A stretch of 64,000 nt of DNA. Source: Pontiella agarivorans. GTDB taxonomy: Bacteria > Verrucomicrobiota > Kiritimatiellia > Kiritimatiellales > Pontiellaceae. The notes beneath the pieces were generated by a model. The model saw nothing but the letters and a program-made list of their open reading frames with translations, was not told the origin of the DNA and searched no databases. The DNA lies in NCBI RefSeq assembly GCF_034531395.1, contig NZ_JARVCO010000012.1:496001-560000 (forward strand), in the 5' to 3' direction. Both the position numbers and the translations under genes were made by a program. Of this stretch, positions 44,207 through 63,133 are shown one piece after another (within the stretch, counting starts at the first letter, position 1; each line of letters starts with the position of its first letter).

Positions 44207-46432
44207 TCAGTACACCTCGAATTCATGGATATGAAGGGGGATCGGGCCGGAGTGATAGTTGATTTTAAGGCGAATAAAGCGGGCGGAGAATGGCTCGATT
44301 TCGTATTCGTGAACGGTTGAGGCGAGGTCATCGCGGTGGGTTCGGGAGGCGACACCGGTGTAGCTTCCCTGCTGTGTTGAAAGCAGTATGTCGTAACGAA
44401 AAGTGCGGGCTTCCTTGGCGAAATCATTGGTGAATACTTTGATCTTGGAAATGGTGTGGATATCCCCTAGATCAATATCGATTTGAGCGGGAAGCGGCGC
44501 TGCAGACCAATAGTTGCTTTCGGTGATGATCCCGTCGACGGCGAATTCCGGATTGCTTCTCACTCCTCCCATTGAGGTGAGGGGTTGACCGAGCACAAGG
44601 TTGTCGGGAATGAGTTCTTCAAACTGTTTTTTCATTTCTTTGTTTTCAGACAGTTTTGCCCCGCGGGCGGCAGGAATCCGTCTGCCGATCCAGTCTGGAG
44701 AGGCCTGTAGCGTTTGGAGAACCCGAAGGAGTAATTCCGAGGCTGCGCCGGAATTATTTTGTTGCTCCAGATAGGCCAGAATTTCAGCACACAGTTCTTT
44801 TTTGAAGGGGATATAGGTCTGTGCGAGTTTTCTGAAATCCTCTCTTTCATCCAGTGCCCAATGCATGAAGAGGGCCATGGTGAGCGGAGTCGATTTGATT
44901 TGGCTGCAGTTTTTAAGCATCTTCTCAACCTGTATATATTCCTCTTCCCGGGTCAGGTTGTTTTTCATGAATGCCTGGTTAACATCCCGAATCATTCGGT
45001 ATAGAGATTGAGGATATTCCCAAAAGGTTTGATCGGCTTTTCTATACTGCCCTTTCATGAAATAGAGGGCCGCCAGAAGATTGTGGTATTCGACGTTTGT
45101 GCTGTCGAGAACTGCAGCCGTTTTTATGTGATTAAATGCGCCTTCAATGTTTCCTCTGGATAGCGCATTCAGTGCTCTTTCGTGATATTGGGGGGCTGCA
45201 TCCCGTCCGAGTCTTTGGCGTTCCTCTTTTTCAATCTGGAGTTCGGCGAGGGCCTTAATGGCCTCTTCGCGGCTATTATGAATGAGCGCAAAAGCAATGC
45301 CGGCGGCCAGAATTAAAAGCAGGATAAATATGCCGGACAGGTTGAGTATCTTTTTCTGACGCAGATAGAAGAGGCGCATTTCCCGAAAGAAACCGGCGTT
45401 TTCCGCAGTCGCTGAAAATCCATTCTGGTAGTTGAGCAAATCCTGCCGCATTTCGCTTACGGAGGCATAGCGGTGCTTGGGGTTCAGTGCCAATGCTTTG
45501 AGGGTAATGGCCGAAAGTGCCGGTGGAATCTGTGCATCGGGGCAGCGGGTGGCCGGGGGAATGATGAGGCCTTGACAGGTTTGTTCCAGAACTTTTTCAG
45601 GCGTTTCCCCGGTAACCGGGAGGGCATTGGTCAGCATTGAATAGAGAATGGCCCCCAGCGAATAGATGTCCGTCTGGAAGGATTTATCCTCTTTTCCTTC
45701 AGCCTGTTCGGGAGCCATGAAACCGGGGGTGCCTTTTATCCGGCCGGAGAGCGTCATATTATTGAGTAAATCGGGGTTGAGCAGCAGTCGATCAAAATCA
45801 CCGCCGTCATAGTCCTGATTACCGATGAGTTTTCCGAGGCCCCAGTCGCAAACCACCACTTCCCCGTGCGCGCCTACCTGAATGTTTTGAGGTTTCAGGT
45901 CCAGATGAAGGACATTCTGCGAGTGGGCGTAGTCAATGGCATCGCATATTTTAAGAAAGATATTCAAAAGCGAAGCCAGGACATCCTTACTCAGGTGTTT
46001 ATTCGGGCTGCTGTGATTCCGGTTGATGATGACATCCAGACTTTCGCCGGTTTTCAGCTCCATAATGAAGTAGGGCGTGGAGTCTGCATTCAGGCCAATA
46101 TCGTAGACCTTGATGATATTGGGATGATCCAGCTGGGCTGTCAGGCGGGCTTCGCGCAGGAAAGGCTCATAAAGTTCTTCCGGGGAGCCCGGGTTGAGCC
46201 GGGCCATGGCCACATAGCGTGCGGTTTTTGGATTGAAGACTCGAAAAATAGATTTCATCCCGCCTCGTGCAAGCAGGACATCCGTCTGAAAGTGAGTCGT
46301 GGTGGGTTCCAGTTCGGAGTAGATGGGGGAAAATTCGGGCTTAAAGTCGCGTTCTGCAGTTTCGCTTTCATAATACAGCGACATGAGCCGGGTAAGTTTA
46401 GGCGAAGTTTCTGAATGATCCATTTTATCCAT
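44207..46432 (-). CDS. Transmembrane protein kinase-like receptor with discoidin (F5/8 type C) sensor domain
   Basis: Order: kinase domain (residues 45-335), membrane segment (363-385), helical TPR-like region (395-590) and a C-terminal F5/8 type C domain (DGIITESNYW...HIHEFEVY). Kinase motifs: glycine loop ARGGMKSIF, HLDLKPQN with D178, D196 in CDWGLGK and the APE-like MAPEQ. The beta-3 VAxK lysine reads VAMAR, so alanine 77 replaces the ATP-positioning lysine; it may be an atypical or pseudo-kinase. The topology puts the kinase inside and the sugar-binding-type domain outside. The start overlaps the stop of the sigma factor gene by one base (TAATG), so the pair is co-translated. Confidence 0.88.
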   Translation of the reverse strand: MDKMDHSETSPKLTRLMSLYYESETAERDFKPEFSPIYSELEPTTTHFQTDVLLARGGMKSIFRVFNPKTARYVAMARLNPGSPEELYEPFLREARLTAQLDHPNIIKVYDIGLNADSTPYFIMELKTGESLDVIINRNHSSPNKHLSKDVLASLLNIFLKICDAIDYAHSQNVLHLDLKPQNIQVGAHGEVVVCDWGLGKLIGNQDYDGGDFDRLLLNPDLLNNMTLSGRIKGTPGFMAPEQAEGKEDKSFQTDIYSLGAILYSMLTNALPVTGETPEKVLEQTCQGLIIPPATRCPDAQIPPALSAITLKALALNPKHRYASVSEMRQDLLNYQNGFSATAENAGFFREMRLFYLRQKKILNLSGIFILLLILAAGIAFALIHNSREEAIKALAELQIEKEERQRLGRDAAPQYHERALNALSRGNIEGAFNHIKTAAVLDSTNVEYHNLLAALYFMKGQYRKADQTFWEYPQSLYRMIRDVNQAFMKNNLTREEEYIQVEKMLKNCSQIKSTPLTMALFMHWALDEREDFRKLAQTYIPFKKELCAEILAYLEQQNNSGAASELLLRVLQTLQASPDWIGRRIPAARGAKLSENKEMKKQFEELIPDNLVLGQPLTSMGGVRSNPEFAVDGIITESNYWSAAPLPAQIDIDLGDIHTISKIKVFTNDFAKEARTFRYDILLSTQQGSYTGVASRTHRDDLASTVHEYEIEPFSARFIRLKINYHSGPIPLHIHEFEVY

Positions 46433-47031
46433 TAACGTTCGAGTTCTTTACGAAGCTGGGCAATCTCTTTCATCAGCCGCTGTCTGACCCGGTTTTTTAA
46501 TGTGCGAACGGATTCGGGATTAATACCGAGTTCTTTGCCAATCTCTCTGGATGATTTTCCTTCCAGCGAGAGTTCGAAGGCCTCTACGGCCACCCCTGAA
46601 AATAATTTGCGGATAGAATTGAGGGCGGTTGCGGTCAGATGCCTGACCCATTCCTGTTCAACGATCTGGTCTAAATCTGTTTGGGAAATGAGCTGTTCTT
46701 CACCTTGCAGTTCCGCAGCTTTATCGCGGCGTTTGTTATATCCCTGATTTTTTTTGATATAGTCGATGGCATAATTCCGAATCAGGCTGGATAGCCATGT
46801 CCGAAAATGAACCTGATATTTTTCACCATCGAAGGTGGAGAGATTCCGCCAGATTTTAACCATGATTTCCTGTGTGACATCATCAAAATCTTTACTGAAA
46901 AAAGACATTTGGCGGAGGACGGCGTGAATGAATCCCGTGTAATATTTGACAAATTCATTCCAGGCTTCTTCGTCATCACGATTTCTGGCCCGTTGAAGCA
47001 GTGTTTGTTTTGTTACCCATTCATCAGGCAT
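46432..47031 (-). CDS. ECF-type sigma factor
   Basis: 199 residues. Region 2 is visible as DFDDVTQEIMVKIWRNLSTF and FRTWLSSLIRNYAIDYIKK; region 4 as ELSLEGKSSREIGKELGINPE followed by VRTLKNRVRQRLMKE, a complete helix-turn-helix. It belongs to the ECF sigma factors common in Planctomycetes-Verrucomicrobia, which are often encoded beside a Ser/Thr kinase in place of an anti-sigma factor. ATG 47031 is chosen because GGGGA lies six bases before it; the ATG four codons upstream overlaps that site. The first ~130 codons and the promoter region are duplicated at 49.6-50.1 kb. Confidence 0.92.
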   Translation of the reverse strand: MPDEWVTKQTLLQRARNRDDEEAWNEFVKYYTGFIHAVLRQMSFFSKDFDDVTQEIMVKIWRNLSTFDGEKYQVHFRTWLSSLIRNYAIDYIKKNQGYNKRRDKAAELQGEEQLISQTDLDQIVEQEWVRHLTATALNSIRKLFSGVAVEAFELSLEGKSSREIGKELGINPESVRTLKNRVRQRLMKEIAQLRKELER

Positions 47032-47141
47032 GTGTGTCCCCATTCATCAGCATTTAAACGCTATCCATGGCATCCATTTCAATCAAGCTTCAATATAGGA
47101 AGCTTTTTTCATTTTTCTGTTTCGCCAGCTTAAGCAAGGTC
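46634..47141. repeat. Segmental duplication, copy 1 (sigma factor 5' part and upstream region)
   Basis: About 508 bases are colinear without gaps with 49601-50108 (offset 2967); I counted about ten base differences, i.e. roughly 98% identity. Similarity continues with an indel to about 47160. Confidence 0.93.
47085..47109 (+). terminator. Hairpin with T-run upstream of the sigma gene
   Basis: AAGCTTC and GAAGCTT form a 7-bp stem around AATATAG, followed by TTTT. The duplicate is at 50052-50076. It would stop plus-strand transcription just before the conserved promoter-like element. Confidence 0.45.
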
Positions 47142-47160
47142 GTAAGAGGGAGTATATAAT
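47088..47160 (+). repeat. Conserved ~73-base element, copy A
   Basis: Begins CTTCAATA, contains GGAAGCTTTTTT, CTGTTTCGCC and GGTCGTAA and ends in AGTATATAAT, which is a perfect -10-like box. It is followed directly by the broken transposase gene. Copy B is the duplicate at 50055; copy C at 58668 is diverged. Confidence 0.7.
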
Positions 47161-47710: not shown

Positions 47711-49576
47711 ATGAAAACGAAGGTTAAAGGACGGAGAAATATCAATAAAGGGGGGGCGAGCGGTTTTGTTATCAGTATTTCCATTCATGCTGCGGCATTT
47801 ATGCTGGCCGGTATGCTGGTGGTCTTTAATGTGACTAAAAAGGAAGAGAAAAAGTTTGTCCCTCCTAAGCCCGTTGACCGACCGAAGATGAAGTTGAAAA
47901 AACCGAGGGTGAAAATGAAGAAATCCGCCCGGCCCAAGTCGATGCGACGCATTGTGACTAAAGTGCAAAAGGCGAATATGCCCGAAGTTCAGCTGCCGGA
48001 AATGAATATTATGGGGAACGGCTTTGATGGTGATATCGGAGGATTTGATATTGTCTCCGATATTTCGGAAATGAGTGTTTTCGGTAGCGAACAGAGTATT
48101 GGCAACGATTTAGAAGGAGTGGTGTATTCTCTGCTGCATGATCGAAATGGCGGAACAATCAGTATGGGACCCGACCAGTTTCGTGATATCCTCCGTAAAT
48201 ATATCTTAAGCGGGTGGAAAGGCTCGGTACTTTCGAAGTATTATCAGTCCCCGAAAAAAATATATTCCACACATGTTATGGTGCCACCGGTTCCTACGGC
48301 AATAGCTCCCGGTATTTTCGGTGTTCAGGAGCTGGAAGATTATTTTCTTTTTATCAAATACGAAGGAAAACTGGTTCATAAAGAAGATATTAAATTCCGG
48401 TTCTGGGGTATTGGGGATGCTTATATTTTTGTAAATGTTGACGGTAAGGAAGTTCTGATGAGTGCCCTGGCTATTCATCATTCCTGGTTTGACTGGTGGT
48501 CGAGTACTGTCGGAGGCGATCGTACTTATGTTTTGGGTAATCAGCGGATGGTGATCGGTGACTGGATTGAATTAAAGGCGGGTGAACCGGTGGATATGAA
48601 GGTGCTGTTCGGGGAATGGAAGGGCGGAGAGGTGGCCGGTATGCTTCTGGTTGAAGTCGAGGGCGAGGAATATCCGATCTCACGTTCGGGCGGTCCTTTG
48701 CTTCCGGCTTTCAAAATGGAAGAGTTTTCCTGGGATCAGCTGACTGAAATTTCAAAGTTCCTGGCGGAGGGAGAGTGTTCGCTGACGAATGGTCCCGTGT
48801 TCAATGATTATTATACCGCGAAGATCTCTACGCCGGAGCCAGTTGCTTTCGGAGATGCAGAACCGGCGGTAGAGGAGGATATTGAGCCTGAACCATCTAC
48901 GATGCGGATCTGGACTACGGAAAAGGGCCGAACGATTGAGGCGGAATATTTATCTGCTGTTTCCGGAAAAGTTATCCTCAAGACGATTCGCGGTAAGCAG
49001 GTCAAAATTCCGTTGGGTGCATTGGCGCAGGATGATCGTGAATTTGTGCTACTCTCGAATCCTCCGAAACTGAACATTAATTTCTCGAAATCCACTAAAG
49101 TTCGCAAATTCGGGGATACTTATACCGGTGATGCACCACCGGTTCGCGGATCATTCTATACGTTTTCTGCTTCGGTCGAGCAAATCAGCATGCGGCCATA
49201 CGGTCTGGAACTGACTGCTGAATTTTATGCTATCGGGGAGGAAGTCGGTGGCGAGAAACATATTTTGCTGGATCACACGACCTCCTCTTTTACTTTGACC
49301 AGGGAAAATAATTTCATTCATGAATTCTCAGGTCGGGAAGTGGAAATGCTGGACTATATTATTAGTGATGAACGGAGGGGGCAACGCTATGGAGGCTACC
49401 TTGTTGTTATTCGCGATAAGCGCAGCGAAATTATTGCTTATGAAAGCTCCAGCGAAAACTTTTTCCGGAATCTGGATAAATTTAAAAATCTGCAGAATGG
49501 ATGGTACTTCGATAAAGATATAAACCGGTGTCTGCCGACGCCACCTGAAGCGAGGTCTGACCTCAGAGAAAACTAG
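47711..49576 (+). CDS. TonB-like membrane protein with SHD1-type domain
   Basis: 621 residues. The N-terminus has one membrane segment (about 17-42) followed by KPVDRPKMKLKKPRVKMKKS, a Pro/Lys-rich stretch like the periplasmic spacer of TonB or GspL-type energy transducers. A middle domain (145-350) is beta-rich and contains FIKYEGKLV and VNVDGKEVLMS, resembling PA14-like lectin folds. Near residue 400 the block RIWTTEKGRTIEAEYLSAV, then GKVILKTIRGKQVKIPLGAL, is an SHD1-type domain common in Verrucomicrobia and Planctomycetes. The terminal region is uncharacterised. It lies between the two copies of the sigma gene segment and may be an outer or periplasmic part of the same signalling set; this is inference. 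Confidence 0.7.
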   Translation: MKTKVKGRRNINKGGASGFVISISIHAAAFMLAGMLVVFNVTKKEEKKFVPPKPVDRPKMKLKKPRVKMKKSARPKSMRRIVTKVQKANMPEVQLPEMNIMGNGFDGDIGGFDIVSDISEMSVFGSEQSIGNDLEGVVYSLLHDRNGGTISMGPDQFRDILRKYILSGWKGSVLSKYYQSPKKIYSTHVMVPPVPTAIAPGIFGVQELEDYFLFIKYEGKLVHKEDIKFRFWGIGDAYIFVNVDGKEVLMSALAIHHSWFDWWSSTVGGDRTYVLGNQRMVIGDWIELKAGEPVDMKVLFGEWKGGEVAGMLLVEVEGEEYPISRSGGPLLPAFKMEEFSWDQLTEISKFLAEGECSLTNGPVFNDYYTAKISTPEPVAFGDAEPAVEEDIEPEPSTMRIWTTEKGRTIEAEYLSAVSGKVILKTIRGKQVKIPLGALAQDDREFVLLSNPPKLNINFSKSTKVRKFGDTYTGDAPPVRGSFYTFSASVEQISMRPYGLELTAEFYAIGEEVGGEKHILLDHTTSSFTLTRENNFIHEFSGREVEMLDYIISDERRGQRYGGYLVVIRDKRSEIIAYESSSENFFRNLDKFKNLQNGWYFDKDINRCLPTPPEARSDLREN

Positions 49577-49998
49577 GGCCTTAATTTTAGATCCGCCTCT
49601 GTCAGATGCCTGACCCATTCCTGTTCAACGATCTGGTCTAAATCTGTTTGGGAAATCAGCTGTTCTTCACCTTGCAGTTCCGCAGCTTTGTCGCGGCGTT
49701 TGTTATATCCCTGATTTTTTTTGATATAGTCGATGGCATAGTTCCGAATCAGGCTGGATAGCCATGTCCGAAAATGAACCTGATATTTTTCACCATCGAA
49801 GGTGGAGAGATTCCGCCAGATTTTAACCATGATTTCCTGTGTGACATCATCAAAATCTTTACTGAAAAAAGACATCTGGCGGAGGACGGCGTGAATGAAT
49901 CCCGTGTAATATTTGACAAATTCATTCCAGGCTTCTTCGTCATCACGATTTCTGGCCCGTTGAAGCAGTGTTTGTTTTGTTACCCATTCATCAGGCAT
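49573..49998 (-). pseudogene. Truncated duplicate of the ECF sigma factor
   Basis: Identical in protein sequence to residues 1-132 of the sigma factor at 46432-47031, up to EQEWVRHLT, after which the frame ends in ADLKLRP and a stop that overlaps the previous gene. Region 2 is complete, region 4 is missing, so the product could bind core RNA polymerase or -10 DNA but not a -35 element. The ribosome site GGGGA and upstream sequence are kept, so it may still be expressed. Confidence 0.9.
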
Positions 49999-50108
49999 GT
50001 GTGTCCCCGTTCATCAGCATTTAAACGCTATCCATGGTCCCCATTTCAATCAAGCTTCAATATAGGAAGCTTTTTTCATTTTTCTGTTTCGCCAGCTTAA
50101 GCAAGGTC
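49601..50108. repeat. Segmental duplication, copy 2
   Basis: Direct copy of 46634-47141 in the same orientation, 2967 bases away. The left breakpoint is within codon ~133 of the sigma gene; the right end lies in the conserved promoter-like element. Confidence 0.93.
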
Positions 50109-50126
50109 GTAAAGAGAGTATATAGA
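50055..50126 (+). repeat. Conserved ~73-base element, copy B
   Basis: Nearly identical to copy A because it lies in the duplicated segment, but with GTAAAGAGAGTATATAG at its end. It is 80 bases upstream of the metallophosphoesterase gene. Confidence 0.7.
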
Positions 50127-54144: not shown

Positions 54145-54225
54145 AGAGGTTGATTCTCCGTCCATATGACCGGGTGCGGTAAATGGATAATGAATCGTAC
54201 TGATTTAACGGAAAAAGGAAATTAC

Positions 54226-55572
54226 ATGAAACGTAGTAGCTTATTCATTTTGATTTTTTTAGGTATAGGTATGGGCTCTGCCGAGTCTGCAGAATCTGTA
54301 TACCACGAGCCGGAAGGCCTTGTTCGGGGCGGAGCTTTTATAGACCGTTTTCTTCCGGTTCCGTTGCGTGGAAAACTTCGTTCCGATGTCTGGGGCGCGG
54401 CGAATGTGGTTCCGCGTGATGTGAATAACGGGATCGAGGATGCCGAATATTCCTATTGGGGTGGAAATATCATTGCAGGCGACGATGGGAAAAATCATCT
54501 ATTTGTCTGCCGCTGGCCGGAAGATAACGTGAAGGGCGGCGGAAAAGCATCCGGGCATCATACCTGGTGGAGCTCGGAGGTGGTGCATGCGGTCAGCGAT
54601 GATCCGCTCGGCCCGTATAAAGTGGTCGACACCATCGGCAAAGGACACAATCCGGAAATCTATCAGACGGCTGCCGGTACGTGGTATATCGGGGTGATGG
54701 GAAAGAAGGCCTATCGTGCAGAATCTCTCGAAGGGCCTTGGGAGCAGGTGGTGTCGACCTTCGACCGGACGGATGTTCCGAAGCACTGGCATGAAAACCG
54801 AACCTATGTGGCGCGGGAGGACGGCAGTGTACTGGCCATGTGCAAGGCCGGCACGCTATGGCTCAGCGAGAAGGGCGATGAAAACTTCCACCTCCTCACA
54901 GAAGAATCTGCCTATACACGGCCGCCGCAAGGGCACTATGAAGATCCGGTTATCTGGAGGGATGAGGTGCAGTATCATTTGGTTTACAATGATTGGTATG
55001 GCCGAGTGGCCTACTATAAGCGTTCGCCGGACGGCATTCATTGGACAACCGAGCCGGGCATTGCATTTACGCCTGAGATCATGAAGCACGAAGGCGGTAC
55101 GCAGGAAAAATGGTATAAATTCGAGCGGCCTAAAGTGCGGCAGGATCAATACGGCCGTGCCACCCATATGAATTTTGCCGTGATTGATGTGATCAAAGAC
55201 AATGATCTCGCGAATGATAACCATAGCTCGAAAAACATTGTCATTCCGCTCGTCGTTCCCCGCCGTCTGCAGATTCTGAATACGGAACCGATCACAGCAG
55301 GAACGAAAAAGATTCGCGTCAGGATATTGGCGGAAGACGGCTTTGATCCGGTGGAGGAGGTGGACCTCAAGTCGCTGACCTTCGGGGCACCGAAAGCCGT
55401 TGATTTCGGGCGCGGTTTTACAACGCTGAAATCAGAAACCGCCGGTAAGGATCTCATCGTCACCTTTGCCGGTTCGGCTCATGAAATCACTGCCGATAAT
55501 TTTGCAGCCAAACTCATCGGCCGCACCAAATCAGGCGCACTGCTGTTCGGGTATGCCAAACTTTCCAACTAA
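54226..55572 (+). CDS. Secreted propeller-type glycosidase (GH43/GH117-like), paralogue 1
   Basis: 448 residues from ATG 54226, preceded by AAAGGAA at six bases; the signal peptide ends in GSAESAES. Repeated blades begin with blocks such as EDAEYSYWGGNIIAGDDGKNH, PLGPYKVVDTIGKGHNPEI and HYEDPVIWRDEVQYHLVYND, a rhythm of W/Y-rich strands and ED/NPE acid residues like five-bladed GH43/GH117 enzymes. Candidate catalytic acids are the ED of IEDAEY, the E of HNPEI and the ED of HYEDPV. The C-terminal ~130 residues form a small beta domain. It is first of three tandem copies 18 bases apart. Confidence 0.7.
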   Translation: MKRSSLFILIFLGIGMGSAESAESVYHEPEGLVRGGAFIDRFLPVPLRGKLRSDVWGAANVVPRDVNNGIEDAEYSYWGGNIIAGDDGKNHLFVCRWPEDNVKGGGKASGHHTWWSSEVVHAVSDDPLGPYKVVDTIGKGHNPEIYQTAAGTWYIGVMGKKAYRAESLEGPWEQVVSTFDRTDVPKHWHENRTYVAREDGSVLAMCKAGTLWLSEKGDENFHLLTEESAYTRPPQGHYEDPVIWRDEVQYHLVYNDWYGRVAYYKRSPDGIHWTTEPGIAFTPEIMKHEGGTQEKWYKFERPKVRQDQYGRATHMNFAVIDVIKDNDLANDNHSSKNIVIPLVVPRRLQILNTEPITAGTKKIRVRILAEDGFDPVEEVDLKSLTFGAPKAVDFGRGFTTLKSETAGKDLIVTFAGSAHEITADNFAAKLIGRTKSGALLFGYAKLSN

Positions 55573-55607
55573 TATTCAATAGGAATCAATATGACCCATA
55601 AATCACT
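55141..55607. repeat. Gene-conversion tract, copy 1
   Basis: About 467 bases, covering the 3' third of paralogue 1, the intergenic gap and the first codons of paralogue 2, are nearly identical to 56497-56963 (offset 1356). Upstream of the tract the two genes diverge markedly. Confidence 0.9.
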
Positions 55608-56928
55608 GACCCTATTCAGCCTGTTCGCTTTGCTTCTTGGAATATCAACCTCCCTGTATGCATCGGATTATGTCCCTCCGAAAGGATTGGTTCACGGCGG
55701 ATCTTTTATTGACCGCTTTCTGCCGGTCCCTGTGAGTGGTCCCCTGCGCTCTGATGTCTGGGGCGCAACAAATGTGGTTCCGCGCGACGTGAATAATGGG
55801 CTCGAAGATGCCGAATATTCCTATTGGGGTGGAAACATCATCCTAGGAGAGGATGGAAAACACCACCTATTCGTCTGCCGTTGGCCGGAAAACAACATCA
55901 AGGGAAAAGTGTCCGGCCACAACACCTGGTGGGCTGCGGAAGTGGTGCATGCGATCAGTGACGGTCCGTTGGGACCGTATAAAGTGATTGATGTGATCGG
56001 CCCCGGTGTAACCCCGGAAATTTATCGACGCCAAGACGGCACGTTTACCATTGGCATTATGGGCGAGATGGCCTACACCGGACCGACTATAAACGGGCCC
56101 TGGACTCTAATTAAAGCTACATTCGATTCGAAAAAAGAGGAGTGGGATACACACTGCCGCACCTATATTCCGCGAGCAGATGGGTCGCTACTGATGATGA
56201 ATAAAAACGGTTTCATGTTCATCAGTGATAACGGCGAAGAGCATTTCCGTCAGGTGACCGAGCAAAGCGTCTACCCGAAAATCGAAAACGACTTCGAAGA
56301 TCCGGTTATGTGGAAAGATGAAGTGCAGTATCATTTGGTTGTGAATGATTGGCGTCGTCGTTATGCCCTGTATATGCGCTCTCCCGATGGCATTCACTGG
56401 AAATGGGATCCCGGCTATGCCTACACGCCCGAGGTGATGAAGCACGAAGGCGGAACGAAAGAGCAGTGGTATAAGTTCGAACGTGCAAAGGTGTTACAGG
56501 ATCAATACGGCCGTGCCACCCATATGAATTTTGCCGTGATTGATGTGATCAAAGACAATGATCTCGCGAATGATAACCATAGCTCGAAAAACGTTGTCAT
56601 TCCGCTCGTCGTTCCCCGCCGTCTGCAGATTCTGAATACGGAACCGATCACAGCAGGCACGAAAAAGATTCGCGTCAGGATATTGGCGGAAGACGGCTTT
56701 GATCCGGTGGAGGAGGTGGACCTCAAGTCGCTGACCTTCGGGGCACCGAAAGCCGTTGATTTCGGGCGTGGTTTTACAACGCTGAAATCAGAAACCGCCG
56801 GTAAGGATCGTGTCGTCACCTTTGCCGGTTCGGCTCATGAAATCACTGCCGATGATTTTGCGGCCAAGCTCATCGGCCGCACCAAATCAGGCGCACTGCT
56901 GTTCGGGTATGCCAAACTTTCCAACTAA
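55591..56928 (+). CDS. Secreted propeller-type glycosidase, paralogue 2
   Basis: 445 residues with signal peptide (ending SLYASDY). N-terminal and middle blades are closer to paralogue 3 (FTIGIMGEMAYTGP, KNGFMFISDNGEEHF) while the last third is almost identical in DNA to paralogue 1. The start is 18 bases after the previous stop, with AATAGGA in the gap. The three copies probably act on related linkages of one polymer. Confidence 0.7.
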   Translation: MTHKSLTLFSLFALLLGISTSLYASDYVPPKGLVHGGSFIDRFLPVPVSGPLRSDVWGATNVVPRDVNNGLEDAEYSYWGGNIILGEDGKHHLFVCRWPENNIKGKVSGHNTWWAAEVVHAISDGPLGPYKVIDVIGPGVTPEIYRRQDGTFTIGIMGEMAYTGPTINGPWTLIKATFDSKKEEWDTHCRTYIPRADGSLLMMNKNGFMFISDNGEEHFRQVTEQSVYPKIENDFEDPVMWKDEVQYHLVVNDWRRRYALYMRSPDGIHWKWDPGYAYTPEVMKHEGGTKEQWYKFERAKVLQDQYGRATHMNFAVIDVIKDNDLANDNHSSKNVVIPLVVPRRLQILNTEPITAGTKKIRVRILAEDGFDPVEEVDLKSLTFGAPKAVDFGRGFTTLKSETAGKDRVVTFAGSAHEITADDFAAKLIGRTKSGALLFGYAKLSN

Positions 56929-56963
56929 TATTCAATAGGAACCAATATGGCCCATAAATCACT
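56497..56963. repeat. Gene-conversion tract, copy 2
   Basis: Partner of the copy at 55141-55607; only scattered single-base changes were seen, for instance GGAATCAAT against GGAACCAAT before the start codons. Confidence 0.9.
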
Positions 56964-58308
56964 GATACAACTCACCCCGGTTGCTGTGTTTCTCAGCTTA
57001 TCCACTACGCTGTATGCCGTTCGTACACCGTCGGAATATGTTCCTCCGTCCGGTTTAGTCCGAGGCGGGGCGTTTATAGACCGCTTCCTGCCGATTCCGG
57101 TGAGTGGTTCCCTTCGCTCTGATGTCTGGGGCGCAACAAATGTGGTTCCGCGCGACGTGAATAATGGGCTCGAGGATGACGAATATTCCTATTGGGGTGG
57201 AAATATCATCGTCGGTGACGATGGGAAAAACCATCTATTCGTCTGCCGCTGGCCGGAAGATAACGTGAAGGGCGGCGGAAAAGCATCCGGTCACAACACC
57301 TGGTGGGCCGCTGAAGTGGTGCATGCGATCAGTGACGGTCCGTTGGGACCGTATAAAGTAATTGATGTGATCGGGCCCGGTGTAACCCCGGAAATTTATC
57401 GGCGCAAAGACGGCACGTTTACCATAGGCATTATGGGCGAGATGGCCTACACCGGACCGATGCTGAATGGCCCTTGGACAAAAATTAAAGCTACGTTCGA
57501 TTGTAAGAAGGAAAAGCTGAATACCACCTGTCGTACCTATGTTCCGCGAGCAGATGGATCGGTGCTGATGATGAATAAAAACGGATATATGTTCATCAGT
57601 GATCATGGCGATGAGCATTTCCGTCAGGTGACGGACCAAAGTGTCTACCCTAAAATCGAAAACGACTTTGAGGATCCGGTGATCTGGAAAGATGAAGTGC
57701 AGTATCATTTGGTTGTGAATGATTGGCGTCGTCGTTATGCCCTGTATATGCGCTCTCCCGATGGCATCCATTGGAAATGGGATCCCGGCTATGCCTACAC
57801 GCCCGAGGTGATGAAGCACGAAGACGGAACGAAAGAACAGTGGTATAAGTTCGAACGAGCGAAGGTGCGGCAAGATCAATACGGCCGCGCGACCCATATG
57901 AATTTTGCTGTGATTGATGTGATTAAAAACAACGACCTCGCGAATGATAATCACAGTTCAAAAAATGTGGTTATTCCTTTGGTTGTGCCGCGACGGCTGG
58001 AACTCTTAAACCAGGAATCCATTCTGTTGAATACAGAACCTGTTCAAGTGAAAATTCTGGCGGAAGAGGGGTTCCAGCCTTTGGAGGATGTGGATGTTGG
58101 TTCGCTGATTTTTGGCGCTCCTGAGCTGGTTAATTTCGGCAAAGGCTGCAAACCGATTAAATCTGAGGCCATCGGAAGCGATCTGATGGTGACCTTTGAG
58201 GGCCGAAAACATGGAGTAAGCCAGGATAATTTCACCGCAAAAATGATTGGACGAACGAAGAGTGGAGGACTCCTGATGGGGTATGTTGCGTTGCCCGGAC
58301 GCGAATAA
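56947..58308 (+). CDS. Secreted propeller-type glycosidase, paralogue 3
   Basis: 453 residues. The first two thirds are mosaic: the stretch RWPEDNVKGGGKASGH matches paralogue 1, while AEVVHAISDGPLGPYKVIDV and the middle match paralogue 2. The C-terminal domain is distinct from both (FQPLEDVDVGSLIFGAP), so the conversion tract stopped before it. Start at 56947 after AATAGGA. Last gene of the likely three-gene operon. Confidence 0.7.
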   Translation: MAHKSLIQLTPVAVFLSLSTTLYAVRTPSEYVPPSGLVRGGAFIDRFLPIPVSGSLRSDVWGATNVVPRDVNNGLEDDEYSYWGGNIIVGDDGKNHLFVCRWPEDNVKGGGKASGHNTWWAAEVVHAISDGPLGPYKVIDVIGPGVTPEIYRRKDGTFTIGIMGEMAYTGPMLNGPWTKIKATFDCKKEKLNTTCRTYVPRADGSVLMMNKNGYMFISDHGDEHFRQVTDQSVYPKIENDFEDPVIWKDEVQYHLVVNDWRRRYALYMRSPDGIHWKWDPGYAYTPEVMKHEDGTKEQWYKFERAKVRQDQYGRATHMNFAVIDVIKNNDLANDNHSSKNVVIPLVVPRRLELLNQESILLNTEPVQVKILAEEGFQPLEDVDVGSLIFGAPELVNFGKGCKPIKSEAIGSDLMVTFEGRKHGVSQDNFTAKMIGRTKSGGLLMGYVALPGRE

Positions 58309-60655: not shown

Positions 60656-63133
60656 ATGATGGAGAAGCGTCTTTATTTAGCGGGTATTGTGACTCTGCTG
60701 GCCGGCATGGTTTTTGGTTTTGAATACGAACCGTATTGGCCGGGAACGGAAATTCAGAATGATAACTGGCTCTATCTCGAGCGGGATACGGATCAGTTGC
60801 CGATGGATGCGGATAGGGTTTATCAGCCGGTGACTCTGCCGCACACGTGGAACGCGCTCGATACGTTGGAAACCAAGAAATATCGGCAGGCGGCCTCATG
60901 GTATCGGAAAAATCTGATGATCACGCCGGAACAGCTGAAGCAAAGGCTTTATCTGCGGTTCGGTGCTGCCGGACAGGAGGCGAAAGTTTATCTGAATGGC
61001 GAGGAGCTCGGAGCCCATCGCGGCGGCTACAGCGCCTTCACCTTTGAACTTACCGGAAAACTGAAAGCAGGCGAAAACCGCATTGATGTGTGGGTATCGA
61101 ATAAAATTAAGAACGATCTGATTCCGCAGAGCGCCGACTACAATTTTTACGGCGGTCTTTACCGCTCGGTTCAATTGATTACAGCTCCGGAAGTTTCGAT
61201 TTCGCGTAAGCATTTCGGTGGGCCGGGCTATCGCGTCTGGAGCGAGCAGGTTGGAGATGATTCTGCCGATATGAATGTGACCGTACAGGTGGACAACGGT
61301 TCATCAAAAGCCTCTTCCGTGACCGTGGCTGCGCGCGTGTTGGATCTGGATGGACGCCCCGTTTCTACCGGCCGGGCCGACGTACAGGTCAAGGGTGGTG
61401 AAACACGTGCGGTTGATCTTAAAATGGACGATGTGAAAAATCCCCGGCTGTGGAGCCCGGAGCATCCCGAACTCTACCGGGTGGAAATCGCGTTATCACA
61501 GAATGGCCGAATCCTGGATTCCGTCGTCGTCAATCACGGCTTTCGCTGGTTTAAGTTTACGGCGGACCAGGGTTTTTTCCTCAATGGAAAATCCTACAAG
61601 CTGCATGGCACCAACCGTCATCAGGATTATTATCGCAAGGGCAATGCGCTGCCGCTGGATCAGCATCTGGCCGATGTGAAGTTGATGAAGGAAGCCGGAG
61701 TTAACTGGCTGCGGATGGCGCACTATCAGCAGAACGATTATTTTGTACAGCTTTGCGATCAGCTTGGCATCCTGGTATGGGAAGAGATTCCTTATGTGAA
61801 TAAGGGGAAACCGGAGCTGATCGAACCGGTGATGCACTCCATGATGAAGGATTTGATTGAGCAGCATTTCAACCATCCGGCGATTATTCTGTGGGGAATG
61901 GGCAATGAAACGTGGATGAAGGATCGTGGAGACGGCTATGCCCACAACTATGATCTGATTAAAGGCGTGCGAGATCTGGTACACCGTGAAGATCCGGTGC
62001 GTAAAACGGTGTTTGTGATCGGGGACCGCAATTATGCGTCGGAACTCAAGGTGGTCGGACTGATGGATGTGTTCGGCTACAATCTCTATCGTGGCTGGTA
62101 TGGCAGCACGGGGTATCAATCGCTGACGGATCGGCTGAATGAACTGCATGCGATGAATCCGGATACACCGTTGATTCTCTCTGAGTACGGTGCGGGGTCG
62201 GACCTTGCGGTGCATACGGAAAAACCGCGCCAGCAGGACTTCAGCATTGAGTATCAGAATGATTTTCTCGAATCACATCTCGATCAGATTGAAAAGCTCG
62301 ACTGGCTGGCCGGCGCAAACCAATGGGCGTTCTGCGATTTCGGTGCGGCACACCGCGGTGATTCCATTCCGCATGTGAATCAGAAAGGGCTGGTCACGTT
62401 TGATCGCCAGAAGAAGGATGCCTTCTATCTGTTTAAATCGCGCTGGAGCACTGAGCCGGTGGTTTACATCGAATCGCCGTTCTGGACCGAGCGCAGCGGT
62501 AAGCCGAAAAAGACATATCGTGTATTTTCCAATATGGATACGGTGGAGTTTTTTCATAACGGGCGTTCGCTCGGAAAGCAGACCGAAGGTTTCCGCTGGG
62601 CTGTGACGCTGGTTGACGGAGAAAATACGCTGCTTGCCAAAGGGGTGTCTGGGGATGTTCAGCTCGAACACGGGTTCTCAGTTCGTTTCGGTGATAAGGA
62701 GGCGAAGTATCTTGTCCGGGCGTCTGCCGAAGAAGCCGCCAATCCGGCCAGCCATCTGGTGGACGGCAACCTGAACACGCGGTGGGGAGCCGAAGGTGAG
62801 CAGACTATTGATCTGGATCTGAAAAAAATAAGCCTCGTCAACGGTGTGAAAATTAAATTTTACAAGGGTGAATCGCGGACCTACAAGCTGGAGATTAAGG
62901 GATCGTCGGGCGGTAAAAAATCAACCGTGCTGTTTGCCGGTGAAAGCCGGCCGGATGCCGAGCTGCAGACCTTTCTTTTCGACCGTCAGCAGGAGCTCCG
63001 TTATCTGCAGGTTTTTGCCAAAGGGAACAATGAAAATAATTGGAACAGCTATTATGAAATCATTCCGATCGTGACGTTAGAGAAGCAGAACAAGAATCTC
63101 TACGAAACAATCGGGGAAGAATTCGCGCAATAA
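60656..63133 (+). CDS. Secreted glycoside hydrolase family 2 enzyme with C-terminal F5/8-type domain
   Basis: 825 residues: signal peptide, jelly-roll (50-180, SWYRKNLMITPEQ, EVYLNGEELG-like KVYLNGEELGAHRGG), Ig-like domain, TIM barrel (290-600) and two C-terminal beta domains. The acid/base glutamate is in LWGMGNET and the nucleophile in LILSEYGAGS, both expected of GH2. Near residue 705 ASHLVDGNLNTRWGAEG is a discoidin/F5/8 type C start. GH2 covers beta-galactosidases, glucuronidases and mannosidases; specificity cannot be read. AAAGGT is before the ATG; the second ATG three bases on is equally possible. Confidence 0.9.
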   Translation: MMEKRLYLAGIVTLLAGMVFGFEYEPYWPGTEIQNDNWLYLERDTDQLPMDADRVYQPVTLPHTWNALDTLETKKYRQAASWYRKNLMITPEQLKQRLYLRFGAAGQEAKVYLNGEELGAHRGGYSAFTFELTGKLKAGENRIDVWVSNKIKNDLIPQSADYNFYGGLYRSVQLITAPEVSISRKHFGGPGYRVWSEQVGDDSADMNVTVQVDNGSSKASSVTVAARVLDLDGRPVSTGRADVQVKGGETRAVDLKMDDVKNPRLWSPEHPELYRVEIALSQNGRILDSVVVNHGFRWFKFTADQGFFLNGKSYKLHGTNRHQDYYRKGNALPLDQHLADVKLMKEAGVNWLRMAHYQQNDYFVQLCDQLGILVWEEIPYVNKGKPELIEPVMHSMMKDLIEQHFNHPAIILWGMGNETWMKDRGDGYAHNYDLIKGVRDLVHREDPVRKTVFVIGDRNYASELKVVGLMDVFGYNLYRGWYGSTGYQSLTDRLNELHAMNPDTPLILSEYGAGSDLAVHTEKPRQQDFSIEYQNDFLESHLDQIEKLDWLAGANQWAFCDFGAAHRGDSIPHVNQKGLVTFDRQKKDAFYLFKSRWSTEPVVYIESPFWTERSGKPKKTYRVFSNMDTVEFFHNGRSLGKQTEGFRWAVTLVDGENTLLAKGVSGDVQLEHGFSVRFGDKEAKYLVRASAEEAANPASHLVDGNLNTRWGAEGEQTIDLDLKKISLVNGVKIKFYKGESRTYKLEIKGSSGGKKSTVLFAGESRPDAELQTFLFDRQQELRYLQVFAKGNNENNWNSYYEIIPIVTLEKQNKNLYETIGEEFAQ

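Follow-up and report, generated by a model that had tools for sequence, protein, structure and literature searches.

In ECF43 sigma factors the acidic DAED motif of region 2.2 has been lost, and a phosphorylated threonine supplies the charge (PMC8103513; PMC13147305). In these systems, where PknT is paired with EcfP and PknS with EcfK, the gene of a Hanks-type membrane kinase lies beside that of the ECF sigma factor and there is no anti-sigma factor. A kinase beside an ECF sigma factor is likewise found in the planctomycete groups ECF59, ECF61, ECF62 and ECF217, within the PVC group, and several of these groups are reported to keep a DAED-like motif, as do other kinase-linked ECF groups, whose mechanism the authors describe as open (PMC8999054).

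On the side of the kinase, the WNK kinases of animals and plants have been described as the only functional ePK family without K72; their K55, which takes the place of the third glycine in the loop, is needed for catalysis (Kannan et al. 2007, PMC1821047). The positive charge is likewise shifted from position 72 to position 55 (PKA numbering) in the CAK-chloro subfamily, but there the residue is Arg and not Lys, and the family is a distant, small-molecule-kinase-like one (PMC1821047).

The locus described here has the gene layout of the ECF43 systems, but its sigma factor retains an acidic region 2.2 and its kinase has a swapped lysine together with HLD and DWG motifs. The best overall explanation, and one that we consider likely, is that a DWG-type single-pass kinase with a relocated lysine forms a signalling pair with its own ECF sigma factor.

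The sigma factor and kinase genes

The window, by which we mean the whole 64,000-nucleotide stretch that was analysed (G000:C12:496001-560000), comes from the 4.4-Mb genome of a marine-type bacterium. The pair has the following features, where counts out of 126 refer to the swapped kinases surveyed below:

46432..47043, minus strand: ECF sigma factor P0002, 203 aa (Pfam Sigma70_r2 and r4_2; TIGR02937 sigma70-ECF above cut-off)
46870..46890, minus strand: sigma region 2.2, DFDDVTQ, residues 52-58; acidic patch retained, unlike ECF43 sigma factors
44207..46432, minus strand: transmembrane kinase P0001, 741 aa; its start overlaps the sigma stop (TAATG)
45464..46276, minus strand: kinase domain, residues 53-323 (PF00069, 120.8 bits; AF2 pLDDT 76.5, pTM 0.78)
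46253..46255, minus strand: K60, the relocated lysine, in place of the third glycine of the loop (ARGGMKS)
46202..46204, minus strand: A77, at the canonical VAxK lysine position (VAMAR, 74-78)
45899..45907, minus strand: HLD 176-178, catalytic loop, Leu replacing the HRD Arg (HLD 123/126; D178 126/126)
45839..45847, minus strand: DWG 196-198, metal-binding motif (126/126)
45281..45349, minus strand: single transmembrane helix, approximately residues 362-384 (Kyte-Doolittle peak 2.77 at 366)
44246..44554, minus strand: F5/8-type C (galactose-binding-like) tail, residues 627-729 (PF22633, 1e-9; PF00754, 2.8e-9)

The TAA stop of the sigma factor gene and the ATG start of the kinase gene have one A in common. 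P0002 consists of sigma-2 and sigma-4 domains only, which by Pfam and TIGR02937 makes it an ECF (group 4 sigma-70) factor. P0001 scores far above the curated PF00069 cut-off of 31.7 bits and is thus a Hanks-type Ser/Thr kinase; its best NCBIfam match is PknD, but far below cut-off. Basic residues precede the hydrophobic helix, and the kinase domain is therefore predicted to be cytosolic. One such hydrophobic membrane-helix peak is present in 67 of 68 paired kinases. Between helix and tail lies a weak TPR match (Pfam, residues 425-468). The open reading frames, Pfam matches, alignment and predicted helix topology bear out what a preliminary description of this DNA had read from the letters: an ECF sigma gene overlapping a gene for a kinase, a helix and an F5/8-type domain, with the kinase inside and the tail outside, and VAMAR in place of VAxK with D178 and D196 kept. 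That description omitted two points, the Leu that replaces the HRD Arg and the lysine at the third glycine. Since the HRD Arg is lost, activation-loop control must differ. D178 itself sits within HLDLKPQN.

Structural comparison relied on the AF2 model of the kinase domain, in which K60 opens strand 2 and A77 lies inside strand 3; a full-length AF2 model built from 4 sequences (pLDDT 48.6) was set aside.

Exchange of the lysine

The preliminary description had called the kinase lysine-less and suggested a survey of the VAMAR position among its homologues. The survey covered one phylum: same-genus relatives were collected, 60 longer stretches taken and 81 kinases aligned, and it was widened to 388 genomes of the phylum, from which 70 more stretches were read. 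Among the 81, all sigma-linked kinases whose loop could be read have Lys60 and Ala77, and the sole canonical kinase, L059, from the same genome and not sigma-linked, has Gly60 and Lys77. The 141 distinct readable kinases of the whole survey divide into 126 with K60/A77 and 15 near relatives with G60/K77, and the mixed state does not occur. In a sample from seven genomes chosen by Pfam Pkinase only, 31 of 32 readable kinases have Gly or Ser at position 60 and Lys77 (one is swapped, and one further kinase was unreadable). Swapped kinases were found in at least 14 families of Verrucomicrobiota; a search beyond the phylum, in a plasmid collection, returned only distant kinases of other taxa with approximately 32% identity.

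The 126 swapped kinase domains have a mean pairwise identity of 46%, and K60 and A77 are among only 20 fully invariant columns, while the neighbouring positions 59 and 61 vary freely. Because each is present in 126/126 despite this divergence, the pattern exceeds chance. E94, D178, K180, N183, D196 and G198 are likewise each 126/126. The idea that the lysine was simply lost is rejected by the presence of K60 in every swapped kinase, and the term lysine-less is not supported: the lysine appears to have been relocated to K60. A substitute from the glycine loop, the second idea of the preliminary description, is strongly supported by the survey. Judged from these alignments, the kinase is probably not lysine-less, and the relocated K60 is very likely functional.

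Of the beta-3 Lys, the HRD Asp and the DFG Asp, the beta-3 Lys alone is absent, and it is by such an absence that pseudokinases are usually recognized in sequence (PMC12599244). However, since all other catalytic residues are invariant, a dead pseudokinase is unlikely. Filters that treat kinases with no VAIK lysine as dead would throw out this whole clade.

Only two of the 126 swapped kinases bear HRD, L136 1492-3552 (G333) and L173 2340-4520 (G367); these are useful for separating the effect of HLD from that of the lysine move. The swapped kinases L152-L158 (family f42) are short (374-441 aa), and the few kb around them hold no sigma factor gene.

Likeness to WNK kinases and origin of the exchange

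In a profile comparison K60 aligns to K233 of WNK1 and A77 to C250 without gaps, the spacing of 17 residues being equal in both; the WNK1 sequence was checked letter for letter against PDB chains. WNK kinases and the swapped kinases thus have in common the missing beta-3 Lys and the Lys at the third-glycine position at the same spacing, and both keep the alpha-C Glu, the catalytic Asp and the DxG Asp. The swapped kinases differ in having Ala not Cys, HLD not HRD and DWG not DLG, and the present kinase in being membrane-anchored and sigma-linked. Among solved structures, the closest in sequence and in fold are bacterial kinases (PknB, StkP, Stk1, PknA and PknS) and not WNK.

In trees built without the trait columns, every swapped kinase falls on one side of a single branch. 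A rooted tree of Verrucomicrobiota kinases, which contains no WNK row, gives the order distant canonical kinases, kinases with DWG, HRD and VAxK, three with DWG, HLD and VAxK, and then the swapped clade (support 89/81; 90% of bootstrap trees; not starred). The closest sisters in the tree are thus PknD-like canonical kinases of the DWG type from the same phylum, which have the DWG motif in common with the swapped kinases but have Gly60 and Lys77, mostly HRD, and are mostly not sigma-linked. On these trees the swap seems to have happened once, later than DWG and probably later than HLD. The sister rows L166, L167 and L181, with canonical lysine, HLD and DWG, are apparent intermediates.

We interpret the swap, nested inside DWG-type bacterial kinases, as probable convergence with WNK and not descent. 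Gene transfer from WNK was considered and rejected, given the PknB/StkP-type nearest relatives and this nested position. Our literature search, which had the 2025 bacterial kinase atlas (PMC12233097) outside its scope, found no earlier report of a WNK-like swap in bacteria.

A single event also means that the 126 sequences are not independent, and the argument for function therefore rests on retention. It would be compatible with this single origin, which makes the co-occurrence of K60 and A77 one event, that the exchange is a neutral quirk of the lineage and that another residue serves catalysis. We give this very little credence, because both residues are completely retained at the divergence given above while their neighbours vary, and because the position of K60 is the proven position of the WNK lysine. 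Living canonical sisters (GGMG...VAMK) exist beside the swapped kinases (GGMK...VAMA), which makes the lysine step testable by reciprocal mutation.

Pairing of sigma factor and kinase

Among named relatives, the pair is carried by isolates of Pontiellaceae, which NCBI places in Kiritimatiellota, and by one MAG of Akkermansiaceae; seven other families of the phylum have such pairs as well. A partner-type sigma factor was found in the stretch for 74 of the 81 kinase genes, within 300 bp in 71 of these 74. The seven kinases without one are mostly at contig ends; the others are L059 and L099, the latter a true absence. The 71 adjacent pairs come in three gene orders: 34 sigma to kinase, 30 convergent tail to tail, and 7 kinase to sigma. 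That the link persists across all three arrangements would be difficult to account for if it had no function.

Sigma and kinase distances are strongly correlated over 68 pairs (r = 0.90; permutation maximum 0.17). Paralogues inside single genomes mirror each other in the same way, with r of 0.82-0.93 and 0/5000 permutations in each of three genomes (G000, G005 and G022), so that species history cannot be the cause. These comparisons show that sigma factor and kinase remain linked and diversify in step. The preliminary description would have given up the pairing if pairs were not conserved together in relatives; they are, and the pairing stands.

In the genome of the window (G000), 9 of 10 Hanks-type kinases sit in such pairs, and 8 full-length P0002 paralogues score more than 90 bits each. 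A single genome can hold up to approximately 24 relatives. Many swapped kinases have no sigma factor nearby (families f42, f48, f60, f63, f67 and f79), and the lysine swap is therefore wider than the sigma pairing and is not about sigma factors as such.

Proposed control of the sigma factor

We propose that K60 would take over the role of the beta-3 lysine, forming a salt bridge to E94 and contacting the phosphates of ATP in the manner of WNK1 K233, and that the kinase would therefore be active. The external tail, here F5/8-type and most likely glycan-binding, would alter the kinase, which would then act on its cognate sigma factor, most likely through phosphorylation. That the kinase controls its cognate sigma factor is highly probable; that it does so by phosphorylation we hold only somewhat more probable than the opposite.

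The pairing itself is the same as that of PknT with EcfP and of PknS with EcfK (PMC13147305), and the adjacent Hanks-type kinase of ECF43 is present here. By analogy, the kinase might phosphorylate a Ser or Thr in or near region 2.2 and so create RNA polymerase binding. This switch is very improbable here. The acidic residues whose loss defines it are present: region 2.2 reads DFDD, where ECF43 has an uncharged, Thr-bearing region, and among 68 partner sigma factors position 52 (D52) is acidic in 97% and position 55 (D55) in 100%. In addition, PknS has a canonical GxGGMG loop with DFG. The acidic patch is also retained in 22 partner sigma factors outside the family. We therefore reject an ECF43-type phospho-switch as a simple mechanism: a sigma factor that still has an acidic region 2.2 should not depend on phosphorylation for the charge that binds core. 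For a large set of sigma-kinase pairs, the ECF43 charge switch cannot by itself account for the control of the sigma factor.

Instead, phosphorylation may make the kinase let go of the sigma factor, or may adjust the sigma factor via the threonines of the N-terminal TRxTL motif. This motif is conserved in the partner sigma factors, with Thr or Ser in 97% at each of T11 and T14, and these two residues may be phosphosites, as candidates drawn from the alignment.

The main rival is a non-catalytic role, in which a pseudokinase would serve as a membrane-bound, ligand-controlled anti-sigma factor that holds the sigma factor and releases it when the tail binds its ligand, with no phosphorylation. 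The missing beta-3 lysine would agree with this, as would the operon and overlap layout, which is like that of sigma/anti-sigma pairs, and a region 2.2 that looks functional and so needs restraint and not added charge. However, a dead kinase should erode, and here the other catalytic residues are invariant (n = 126) and a Lys occupies the sole known compensating position; moreover, the swap is equally kept in kinases without a nearby sigma factor. We regard the non-catalytic role as improbable and favour phosphorylation, of the sigma factor or of the sigma-kinase contact.

More broadly, it appears reasonably likely that Verrucomicrobiota kinases independently found the WNK solution once and kept it, and that one branch became multi-copy, one-to-one sigma-factor receptors switched otherwise than by the ECF43 charge. 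One may speculate that the swapped kinases are also, like WNK, sensitive to halide or osmotic conditions.

Sensor tails and possible targets

The F5/8 tail is found in 3 of 40 scanned members, namely the present kinase, its G014 orthologue (62%) and its G022 orthologue (50%). Most tails of paired kinases are TPR and leucine-rich-like. Glycan-degradation genes are the probable targets in the mechanism that we propose. Among the scanned neighbours of pairs, sulfatases occur at 20/67, and there are also two lambda-carrageenases, GH43, GH10 and GH30; sulfatase-type genes lie on both sides of the G022 orthologue. These genomes are rich in sulfatases, with at least 138 each. Near pairs, sulfatases are only modestly enriched: in G000 their density is approximately 0.096 per kb against at most 0.038 genome-wide, in G022 the enrichment is weak, and G005 lacks it (0.051 near pairs, at most 0.064 genome-wide). 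Proximity of sulfatases was rejected as proof of a regulon on account of this unevenness. Because sulfatases are abundant genome-wide and their enrichment differs between genomes, glycan control is plausible rather than established. We put glycan genes as the targets at about an even chance, and a glycan as the external ligand at somewhat below that.

The preliminary description supposed that a carbohydrate bound outside is the signal and that the downstream glycosidase genes are under the control of the pair; both ideas are plausible but conjectural. The glycosidase genes of the window lie approximately 7-16 kb from the pair on the opposite strand, with other genes intervening, and include:

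60656-63133, strand opposite to the pair: GH2 gene with its own F5/8 domain

Beside this gene, 54166-58308 holds a tandem of three related genes (468, 445 and 453 aa) with stretches of DNA that are 71-87% identical. By sequence they are beta-propeller-glycosidase-like, the first being without a Pfam match.

Partial duplication of the sigma factor gene

Part of the sigma factor gene is present twice in the window, as a 525-bp direct duplication:

46634..47158, no strand assigned: copy 1, the sigma upstream region and first 136 codons, 98.1% identical to 49601-50124
49601..50124, no strand assigned: copy 2, leaving a truncated sigma-2-only ORF of 141 aa (49573-49998, minus strand)

The copies are 2967 bp apart, and between them lies ORF 47711-49576, which encodes an N-terminal membrane helix and an SHD1 domain. 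The genome holds approximately 11 more copies of this ORF, which show 44-60% identity, and several are interrupted by a stop codon at approximately residue 370. This multi-copy family may travel with the 525-bp duplication.
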